Position numbers and translations under genes: made by a program
Shown: positions 18,782-42,273 of the stretch, one piece after another
How positions within the stretch are numbered: position 1 is the first letter of the stretch
How the letters are laid out: every line of letters begins with the position of its first letter
Notes under the pieces: generated by a model
The model's database searches: none
Seen by the model: only the letters and a program-made list of their open reading frames with translations
Told to the model about the DNA's origin: nothing
Origin: Actinomycetes bacterium
Lineage (GTDB): Bacteria > Actinomycetota > Aquicultoria > UBA3085 > Oleimmundimicrobiaceae
Length of the DNA: 42,273 nt
Direction of reading: 5' to 3'
NCBI GenBank assembly: GCA_030614255.1
Contig: JAUWKI010000010.1
Coordinates: 1 to 42,273, forward strand

Positions 18782-18898
18782 AAATTGGTGCCCCACCAGG
18801 AGGAATGCCTGGCGTCACCCATTTCAATTCCCTAAATTGGTGCCCCACCAGGAGGAATGCCTGGCGTCACCCATTTCAATTCCCTAAATTGGTGCCCC
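18782..18898 (-). repeat. Two 52-bp tandem repeats mimicking the tRNA-Glu 3' end
   Basis: A 52-base unit occurs exactly at 18782-18833 and 18834-18885, and its first 13 bases recur at the 3' end of tRNA-Glu (18886-18898). Read on the minus strand each unit ends CCAGG-CATTCCT-CCTGG-TGGGGC-A-CCA: a 5-bp stem with a 7-base loop followed by an acceptor-like strand, discriminator and CCA, i.e. the shape of a tRNA 3' quarter. There is no matching 5' half. Origin by duplication at the tRNA trailer is likely. Confidence 0.8.
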
Positions 18899-39869: not shown

Positions 39870-40232
39870 TTATCTTTGTCTTTGACTTAATTGTTTCTTT
39901 CGTTTCTCTCGTTTCTTTTCTTGCTCTCTCTTTCTTCGCCCAGGGAGAGCTAGTTTTTTTACAATCATAATCCGTAAAACCTGGTCGGTTATTCCTAGAA
40001 CCCTGTCAAGCTCGCTCACCGTTTTGCTTTCACCCTTAAAGGTTATAAGGTAGTAGTCCCCCTCATTATGTTTCTTGATGGGATAAGCCAACCTCTTTCT
40101 GCCCCATTTTTCAGATTTGTCTACCTTCCCGCCATTTTTTTCGATGAGCTTATTGGCCTTGGTAATAACTTCCTCAGTGGCCTCAGCATCGAGGGTGGAG
40201 TCAACTATAAGCATAAGTTCGTAGTCTTTCAA
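39870..40232 (-). CDS. rpsF: Ribosomal protein bS6
   Basis: bS6 with the usual start MKDYELMLIVDSTLDAEATE, GRKRLAYPIKKHNEGDYYLI and a C-terminal basic tail (KREQEKKREKRKKQ). The TTG at 40232 (120 residues) gives the canonical N-terminus and 8 bases after GGAGG; GTG 40241 lies inside the ribosome site. First gene of the rpsF-dnaB operon; its leader has a probable S6:S18 binding site. Confidence 0.95.
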   Translation of the reverse strand: MKDYELMLIVDSTLDAEATEEVITKANKLIEKNGGKVDKSEKWGRKRLAYPIKKHNEGDYYLITFKGESKTVSELDRVLGITDQVLRIMIVKKLALPGRRKREQEKKREKRKKQLSQRQR

Positions 40233-40248
40233 ACATTTCACCTCCTTC

Positions 40249-40281
40249 GGTCTAATCGGGCCCGCTGTTCTTCAGCGGACC
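40249..40281 (-). promoter_or_regulatory. S6:S18-type leader hairpin (autoregulatory)
   Basis: Minus-strand RNA: GGTC (40281-40278) and CGCTG pair with CAGCG and GACC (40252-40249), around loop AAGAA, with a one-sided bulge GGCCCGATTA that contains CCG. This matches the known design of the S6:S18 mRNA site (two stems, asymmetric CCG bulge). It ends just before GAAGGAGG, so binding would block rpsF translation. An alternative 9-bp pairing GGTCCGCTG/CAGCGGGCC competes. Confidence 0.6.
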
Positions 40282-40332
40282 AGAAGATGTTTCTGTTGCC
40301 AGTAGGCAGTTTATTGAATTTGAACGGAGCTT

Positions 40333-40361
40333 ATTATAACAGCCATGATGGAAGTGGGCAA
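40333..40361 (-). promoter_or_regulatory. Promoter of the rpsF operon
   Basis: Minus-strand TTGCCC (40361-40356), 17-base spacer, perfect TATAAT (40338-40333) with an upstream TG (TGTTATAAT), giving a leader of about 95 bases. Confidence 0.8.
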
Positions 40362-40440
40362 GCTATTAGCCACCAGCCGTCAGCTCCCAGCCATCAGGAA
40401 AATTATAAATAAAAGCTTTTTGTTAGTTTTGGTTTTTAAA

Positions 40441-40580
40441 TCTAGGTGGGTTGTTCGCAGGTGACCCTCCTTCGGCGGACAGGCATATGAGAGTGCCGAC
40501 CGTGCCGACCGCCCTGCCTACCGGCAGGCAGGGCAGGCAGGCGAACAATCGATGAGGCGGGGTTTCGACCGAAGCTGTCT
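40441..40580 (+). ncRNA. Structured RNA candidate A
   Basis: GGTGGG (40445-40450) pairs with CCCTCC (40465-40470) around a loop that starts TTGTTCGC; this loop pairs with GCGAACAA (40541-40548), with outer pairs to 40449-40550 as an alternative. After the hairpin comes GGCGGACAGGCATATGAG, shared with candidate B. The middle holds a 24-base palindrome (GCCCTGCCT...AGGCAGGGC). Orientation is chosen because one pair is G-U on the plus strand. It looks like a shortened relative of candidate B. Confidence 0.5.
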
Positions 40581-40830
40581 CTTGTTTTTAGTTTTTAAAA
40601 CCTCTGCGGGTTGGGTAGACAGCGACCCTCCAGAGGCGGGCAGGCATATGAGCACGCCGTATAGCGAAGGAAGTTTGAACATCTGCGACACCGTGCCTAC
40701 CGGCAGGCAGGAATTGTGTGCTCAAAGAGCAAATAGCAATTTCGCAATGAGAGAATCGACTGAGTAGGCGCGCGCCGTGCCTACCGCCGTGCCTGCCTGC
40801 CCTGCCTACCGGCAGGCAGGGCAGGCAGGC
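40511..40830. repeat. GC-rich palindromes CCTGCCTACCGGCAGG type
   Basis: Copies at about 40511-40540, 40692-40711 and 40776-40830, with relatives at 25058-25080 and 42221-42273. Core GCCTACCGGCAGGC is self-complementary and extended by GCAGGCAGG words. They stand out against AT-rich surroundings and resemble REP-like elements. Confidence 0.75.
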
Positions 40831-40855
40831 AATCCGGAGCTGTTACCCAACCCAT
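40601..40855 (+). ncRNA. Structured RNA candidate B
   Basis: CCTCTG-c-GGG (40601-40610) pairs with CCC-tc-CAGAGG (40626-40636); the loop TTGGGTAGACAGC pairs with GCTGTTACCCAA (40839-40850), a long pseudoknot with one bulge. Downstream: GGCGGGCAGGCATATGAG, then ACGCCGTATAGCGAAGGAAG, hairpin GCTC-AAA-GAGC (40720-40730). Two GC palindromes appear inserted (40692-40711 and 40776-40830). Size without inserts is about 200 bases. I cannot name the family; raiA-type RNA would be the first to test. Confidence 0.55.
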
Positions 40856-40951
40856 AAAAAAACAAATTATAAACAAGCAAATAACAAATAAACTGTTAAT
40901 CACTGACGATTTTTAGAGAGGAGAAAAAAACAAACTAGCAAACCTTTAAGT

Positions 40952-42043
40952 TTAAGCAGAAAACTTGAAGGTAATAACGTCTCCGTCTTGTATAACGTAT
41001 CCTTTGCCTTCGAGAAGAAGATGGCCCTGTTCACGGACAGCATGAAGTGAGCCGACTTTAATTAAATCCTCATAGTGAACAACTTCGGCTTTTATGAATC
41101 CGTGTTCCATATCGGTATGAATCTTGCCTGCCGCCTGGGGGGCTTTCGCGCCTTTCTTAATTGTCCATGCCCGGCACTCATTTGATTCAGTGGAAAAGAA
41201 GGTTATGAGCCCCAAAAGCTTATAGGAGGCGTGTACCAATTTATCCAAACCCAACTCTTTTAGCCCCATATCTTCCATAAATATTTGAGTTTCATCTTCA
41301 TTTAACTCGGCCAACTCGGATTCAAGTTTTGCAGAAATGATGATGGCCTCACTGCCATCTTTCTTGGCAAAATCTGCCACCTGCTTCGCCAAAGAACCGT
41401 CTTTTTCGATATCGACCTCGGAAATGTTTGCAATGTAAATAACGGGCTTTAAAGTAAGCAGACTGCTGTCGGAAGAGAGGAGCTGAACCTCCTCGGCGGA
41501 AAAATTCGCGCCCCGGGCAGGTAAGCCCTCTTCCAAAATATCTTTTGCTTTCTCTAAGATTTCTTTTTGGTGAAGATAAACTTTATCTCCCGCTTTAGCA
41601 TATCTATTAACCTTCCCTAATCTTTTTTCAATTACAGCCAAGTCGGCAAGGATAAGTTCCAAATTAACCGTTTCTATATCCGATAAAGGATTTATATTTC
41701 CTTCAACGTGAGACACGTTTTCATCTGAAAAACATCTAACAACATGGGCAATGGCATCAACTTCCCTGATGTATGAAAGAAACTGGTTCCCAAGACCCTC
41801 CCCACGGCTTGCCCCCTTAACTAAACCCGCTATATCTACAAATTTAATGTGAGCGGGAACAACATTTTTGCTCTCGACAATTTTGGCAATCTTGTATAAG
41901 CGCTCATCCCGAACCTCGGCAACACCCACATTTGAATCCACGGTTGTAAAGGGGTAATTTCCAATCTCAGCCCCCGCCTTAGTTGTGGCGTTAAAAAGAG
42001 TCGATTTTCCGGTATTAGGAAGACCCACGATACCTACCTGCAT
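40952..42043 (-). CDS. ychF: Ribosome-associated GTPase/ATPase YchF
   Basis: Obg-family P-loop protein that hydrolyses ATP rather than GTP in studied members. Motifs: [18 protein letters not shown] at the N-terminus (G1), [16 protein letters not shown] (G2), [20 protein letters not shown] (G3) and a C-terminal TGS domain with [20 protein letters not shown] and [12 protein letters not shown]. 363 residues, normal. The YchF-typical AxxE-type G4 is seen as [16 protein letters not shown] precedes ATG. Its place before rpsF matches Bacillus. Confidence 0.96.
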
Positions 42044-42273
42044 TTAACCTCCTGTTAGTCGACAGTTTCTTAGTCGGGAGTCGGGAGTTTGTTGGCCCGA
42101 TTGCTGATTTTACTATACTCCATACTCTATACTCTATCTGCCATCAGCCCATCAGTCAGTAGTCTGTTAGTCGAGAGTTAGTTCAAATTAAAATTTAAAA
42201 TATAAAAATGTAAAACTACTTGCCTGCCCTGCCTGCCCTGCCTGCCGGTAGGCACGGCGGTAGGCACGGTATA
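42044..42273. repeat. Repeat-filled DNA upstream of ychF
   Basis: GTTAGTCGACAGTT and AGTCGGGAGTCGGGAGT, then CCCGATTGCTGATTTTACTA, TACTCCATACTCTATACTC and CTATCTGCCATCAGCCCATC words, followed by AT-rich DNA and a GC palindrome (GCCTGCCGGTAGGC) at the edge. The 42075-42150 part matches 25170-25290. No gene or clear ychF promoter seen. Confidence 0.7.

Follow-up and report, generated by a model that had tools for sequence, protein, structure and literature searches.

What are the two related sequences that stand in tandem between the genes ychF and rpsF in an Actinomycetota MAG (genome G000; 1.44 Mb, 52 contigs), and which a sequence-only reading had proposed as candidate structured RNAs? The window, i.e., the whole stretch of DNA that was analysed, is contig C31 of this genome and comprises 42,273 nucleotides. 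Its long open reading frames lie nearly all on the minus strand. Both ychF (40952-42043, minus strand) and rpsF (39870-40241, minus strand) were identified with Pfam, and the placement of the two copies in this interval was borne out. The nearest relatives of YchF were found in two Actinomycetota MAGs (65-66%). The region upstream of rpsF (40242-40300) contains a GC hairpin region (GGGCCCGCTGTTCTTCAGCGGACC), which is a possible S6:S18 leader and has no Rfam match at gathering score. Elsewhere in the window a 52-bp unit is repeated 2.2 times with a 100% match between the genes for tRNA-Val and tRNA-Glu (18782-18898), within a cluster of five tRNA genes.

The downstream copy, copy B (40606-40855, plus strand), is an intact rod of type B; a "rod" is one long imperfect hairpin, which in this copy is about 155 nt long after removal of small palindromic inserts. 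It is preceded by a T-rich lead-in (CTCTTGTTTTTAGTTTTTAAAACCTCT, 40579-40605), and its terminal stem is formed by the left arm GCGGGTTGGGTAGACAGC (40606-40623) and the right arm GCTGTTACCCAACCCAT (40839-40855), which is followed by an A-tract. Three sites within the rod are occupied by inserts. The first (CCTCCAGAGGCGGGCAGGC, 40627-40645) and the second (CCGTGCCTACCGGCAGGCAGG, 40691-40711) are missing from the copies at L030, L109, L110 and L120, and the third is a compound GC palindrome (40775-40829). The apical loop and the right inner arm (AATTGTGTGCTC AAA GAGCAAATAGCAATTTCGC...GGCGCGCG, 40712-40774) correspond to the best conserved part of rod types B, C and D. The fold of copy B has a z value of -7.0, to which the GC inserts contribute. 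As for the GC palindrome (core CCTACCGGCAGG), it is a dispersed repeat of the genome in its own right. In the window it occurs at 40511-40542, 40691-40711, 40775-40829 and 42228-42270, and in the rods it has entered the same two loop positions time and again.

Copy A (40446-40578, plus strand) turned out to be a truncated rod of another type, type A, with a fold z value of only -1.5. It follows a T-rich/TTTTTAAA lead-in (40432-40445), and similar tracts stand before most rods in these related genomes. Its left arm extends from GTGGGTTGTTCG to CCGAAGCTGT, while the 3′ part (GAGTTCTGCAGG...GAGCAACCCAC) is absent. It carries a palindromic insert (CCTCCTTCGGCGGACAGG, 40466-40483), which many other copies lack (compare the GACATATGAG copies), and the dispersed GC palindrome at 40506-40541. 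Intact type-A copies were found at L136, L187, L217, L076 and other loci, and the missing arm GAGCAACCCAC is present in them. In the consensus fold of ten intact type-A copies the left arm is paired with this 3′ arm.

This comparison changes how the two copies relate to each other. The shared features on which their kinship had been based are indeed present in the sequence, i.e., the TTTTTAAA tract ahead of each copy, the GC palindromes as inserts, and the motif GGCGG-n2-AGGCATATGAG-n3-GCCG, which lies within a 36-nt repeat that is 81% identical (40463-40498 and 40624-40659). The hairpin loop of each copy had been claimed to pair with a distant 3′ segment. The complementarity was found in both (40451-40458 with 40541-40548 in A; 40611-40623 with 40840-40851 in B), but the two pairings are not equivalent, because copy A has lost its 3′ arm and its left arm therefore pairs with an internal segment, whereas the left arm of copy B pairs with the true 3′ arm. 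Copy A is thus a truncated copy of a different type and not, as had been suggested, a deletion derivative of copy B. The GGG-loop-CCC hairpin was also not retained as a conserved feature: its CCC is part of a palindromic insert of about 19 nt (CCTCCAGAGGCGGGCAGGC and variants; CCTCC...GGCGGGCAGG), which is lacking in many copies, and copies without it read GAC-ATATGAG directly. As a whole, the earlier observation was partly confirmed, and its interpretation was partly supported.

Relatives of each of the two copies are numerous, both within the genus and family of G000 and, less densely, elsewhere in its class of uncultured Actinomycetota. Further copies in the genome were sought with a pattern of the shared motifs and with a BLAST search. 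Many were obtained: there were 111 matches, although a considerable share of these covered nothing but the GC palindrome, and the rods amount to tens of copies and fragments in G000 and its relatives. Reading of about 60 loci led to the definition of at least seven types (A, B, C, D, E, G and H) with lengths of about 150-290 bp, type H being about 240-290 bp long. In types A-D and G the rod opens with a GTGG stem and closes with the complement of this stem; a T-rich tract usually precedes it and an A-tract usually follows. The terminal stem of types A-D comprises 11-18 bp. Types B, C and D have a common inner domain, while their outer stems differ and pair within each type. The rods form a superfamily of small, dispersed and apparently non-coding intergenic repeats. 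The intergenic regions of L086, L095 and L099 also contain nested REP-like palindromes of other kinds (GGGATGACC...GGTCATTTTTAGG and GAGATTGCCGCG...CGCAATGAC).

Eleven copies of types B, C and D, freed by hand of their GC palindromes, served as the seed of a covariance model termed R1; longer natural flanks were used, as default alignments misaligned the outer stems. R1 matched the inner part of copy B with 67.2 bits. It detected rods in 12 of the 36 genomes of the class, i.e., in 8 of 25 genera scattered across six families, and gave no match in G004, which belongs to the same family as G000. In total 397 genomes were searched, and none of the approximately 361 Actinomycetota genomes outside the class had a match. 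Plasmid and phage records contained no rod match either. A viral or plasmid origin was rejected: matches of short patterns in viral contigs were due to chance, and R1 scored in none of 98 contigs.

The rod consensus is a single long hairpin with conserved internal loops. In the seed of 11 copies of types B, C and D, 93.5% of the cells are paired and the covariation is 0.424, compared with 0.208 after shuffling. The main set comprised 34 distinct matches aligned to R1, with inserts kept and distant genomes included. In this set 91.0% of the cells are paired (73.0% after shuffling), 40 of 52 pairs have changed on both sides (26.4 after shuffling), and the covariation is 0.470, compared with 0.174 after shuffling and at most 0.083 when the alignment was slid. 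These values lean towards the fold, because the alignment had been fitted to R1; chance is nevertheless untenable as an explanation, given how large the effect is and what the slid controls gave. Between types the pairing on one strand is kept and the sequence is not. Compensatory change had been deduced from the differing loops of copies A and B; it is real as a property of the whole family and not of this pair.

The fold of one strand is favoured, as is indicated by an excess of G-U over A-C at mostly Watson-Crick pairs (118 versus 43 in the 34 copies; 42 versus 11 in type A) together with the higher stability of the plus-strand fold in 24 of the 34 copies. Mutation bias was rejected as the source of the G-U excess, since the effect expected from a C-to-T bias on the G-rich strand is the opposite one.

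The guess that the copies might be raiA-type RNAs failed. No match to raiA RNA (RF03072; gathering score of the Rfam covariance model 101.3 bits) was obtained up to E = 10 in 40241-40951, and a genuine raiA RNA is encoded elsewhere in the genome (L001:1501-1731, identical to G000:C33:11645-11875; 164.6 bits). Like raiA RNA, the rods are structured intergenic sequences of about 200 nt; unlike it, they do not match the family and are present in tens of copies, while raiA occurs once in G000. The 3′ end of the raiA RNA adjoins rod fragments in this genome, and the corresponding locus of G001 (L099) has the same arrangement. A search of the whole window with Rfam 15 retrieved only five tRNAs at gathering score, and at 12 loci with other copies only the raiA RNA beside a rod reached it. 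Scores of mir families were due to the GC palindrome only. Two further candidates were discarded. Integron attC sites have R boxes (RYYYAAC ... GTTRRRY) at the hairpin ends, and the rods end with GTGGGTTG...CAACCCAC and variants thereof. Intrinsic terminators consist of a GC hairpin and a T-run on the same strand, and the rod stem is followed by an A-tract on the plus strand, with no terminator-like site at the rods. That the sequences lie outside the known RNA families had been one of two options left by the sequence-only reading, and judged by Rfam the rod family is new; in the literature that was searched related kinds were found, and the family itself was not.

The rods have a pronounced orientation. 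Of the rods between tandem genes, 35 have two antisense neighbours and four have two neighbours in the sense orientation; these counts stem from a simple ORF caller, and some loci are orthologous, so that not all cases are independent. GC skew was determined over windows of up to 20 kb, and in 33 of 36 cases it is negative for the plus strand of the rod, which is then the C-rich one. Between convergent or divergent neighbours, where the local gene strand cannot decide, the orientation follows the GC skew in nine of ten cases. GC skew, which correlates with gene strand, is used here as a stand-in for the direction of replication; if it is a valid guide, the favoured rod strand would be the leading-strand template. 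Enzymes of the IS200/IS605 type use the lagging-strand template (PMC6006769). The favoured rod strand would be opposite to this model.

The copies behave like a mobile repeat, being nested, truncated, chimeric and dispersed. A type C rod is interrupted by a type A rod (L076), an A/B rod by type E (L098), and a type B rod by type A (L115); in L032, L091 and L093 arms of different types are joined. Over about 240 nt, the type H element of G006 (family f3) shares 93% identity with those of G012 and G024 (family f9); their flanks are unrelated, so that this type stands at unrelated loci. G006 harbors about a dozen long copies, and a shorter form, which lacks the apical part through an internal deletion, has multiplied to at least six copies in G006 and G021. 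The ends of type H are inverted, TGTA...TACA (TGTATTAATCGCAGACATTGGTTAC and GTTACCAATGTGCGTGAACATTACA; judged by eye). In several positions of the type H copies in L388-L405 short perfect palindromes, e.g., CCCCGACNNGTCGGGG and CCCGTACGGG, replace whole side helices, which look trimmed and capped.

Other observations speak against simple mobility. Downstream of ychF, G000 has copies A and B, G001 a type E rod and G003 an intact type A rod, and a convergent gene pair is accompanied by rods in four genomes of two families (G000, G001, G002 and G009). Rods of differing type at the same site across genera could have been retained for a function rather than being mobile. Type B copies are 88% similar within a genome and 88% similar between genomes, so that this type has had no recent burst. 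The shared sites and this similarity thus indicate either hot spots or that rods are kept there. The k-mers shared by the flanks are slightly longer than those shared with shuffled partners (6.58 versus 5.99), and there is no constant position for a target-site duplication. No autonomous parent or transposase was found near rods at the loci inspected, where Y1 transposases alone were looked for.

Taken together, the rods are probably non-autonomous mobile hairpin elements similar to MITEs and ERIC, which would spread through a folded single strand. They are likened to MITEs rather than classed as such, because neither a constant target duplication nor an autonomous parent was found. Bacterial MITEs are about 100-200 bp long and have long stem-loops; ERIC/IRU/RU-1, NEMIS/Correia, RUP, RPE and RU-2 are intergenic multi-copy elements of 100-200 bp with long stem-loops and terminal inverted repeats (PMC2229807). 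The rods share the copy number, the intergenic location, the long stem-loop, the length of about 100-200 bp (exceeded by type H with about 240-290 bp) and the terminal inverted repeats (the stem of types A-D, TGTA...TACA in type H). In contrast to these elements they form several types with differing terminal stems around a common inner domain, are nested, and have an orientation bound to GC skew; the two groups are likened by description, and no sequence relation was seen.

It is rather unlikely that the rods are a class-specific family of structured non-coding RNAs that are transcribed from the plus strand, act in trans, e.g., by protein binding, and gave rise to paralogues by duplication. 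The strong covariation and the conserved internal loops, the preference for one strand with G-U over A-C, and the retention at the same sites across genera would all suit such RNAs. Their 3′ ends would be formed at the bidirectional terminator of a convergent neighbour, and rods are often closely followed by a hairpin that has a T-run (L093 and L097; by eye). However, no promoter-like site was found on the plus strand near the copies of the window, many copies are broken, chimeric or nested, the distribution is patchy, with no rods in G004 although it belongs to the same family, and the loci of type H are unrelated to each other. A cis-acting 3′ element of the upstream gene, i.e., a transcription terminator, mRNA stabiliser or RNase site, is highly improbable. 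The rods usually lie within about 200 nt past the 3′ end of a gene and antisense to it, but the favoured fold is on the plus strand and not on the mRNA strand, the hairpin is followed on the favoured strand by an A-tract instead of a T-run, and rods in convergent or divergent settings still follow the GC skew.

Quite improbable, too, is that the rods are giant relatives of the "double foot" REPs (GT[AG]G...C[TC]AC), which a Y1 HuH transposase (TnpA-REP/RAYT) would mobilise at the fork, acting on single-stranded DNA. REPs are hairpins of 21-65 nt with a 5′ GTAG or GTGG, and the double foot has been described for subclass 2.4 (PMC6006769). Of 34 aligned rods, 24 have a GTGG or GTAG at the 5′ end, and in most of these the 3′ end has CCAC, CTAC or CCAT; like these REPs, rods can thus carry the foot at one end and its reverse complement at the other. 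Both kinds are intergenic hairpins to which a single-strand logic applies (PMC6006769, PMC3116915), the rod orientation tracks the inferred direction of replication, and Y1 transposases are encoded in G000-G003. On the other hand, the rods (150-290 nt) are three to ten times longer, the foot is not conserved across the class and is absent from more distant members (GGGG/CCCC, CTGC/GCAG), and the favoured strand is opposite to that of the REP/Y1 model. At the 15 Y1 loci inspected, neither a rod flanking the gene nor a GTRG...CYAC hairpin with at least nine paired bases was found. The Y1 transposase was rejected as the partner of the rods, as it is present in the genomes but not adjacent, and its presence does not track the rods.

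As MITE-like elements, the rods would insert between genes and into each other, recombine into chimeras, gain small palindromes in their loops, and decay. When a copy spreads, a trans-acting enzyme would recognise the folded single strand, and the intermediate would most likely be single-stranded DNA exposed at replication forks. The orientation bias would fit such an intermediate, yet it is opposite to the standard lagging-template model.

It is tempting to speculate, as a fairly long shot, that the rods are a bacterial counterpart of SINEs, in which a structured RNA or folded single strand drives the spread of its own gene, the types keep the fold by compensatory change, and nearly all copies have one orientation relative to the fork. 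Small hairpin repeats of bacteria are usually regarded as near-perfect palindromes or decayed MITEs. The rods are a superfamily absent from Rfam whose irregular fold has been maintained by many compensatory changes; this fold concerns one strand and has one orientation with respect to the inferred direction of replication. They thus offer a testable case of a folded single strand, be it DNA or RNA, as the spreading unit. They are also a warning for the discovery of non-coding RNAs: covariation as strong as this can stem from a mobile repeat and not just from a functional RNA gene.
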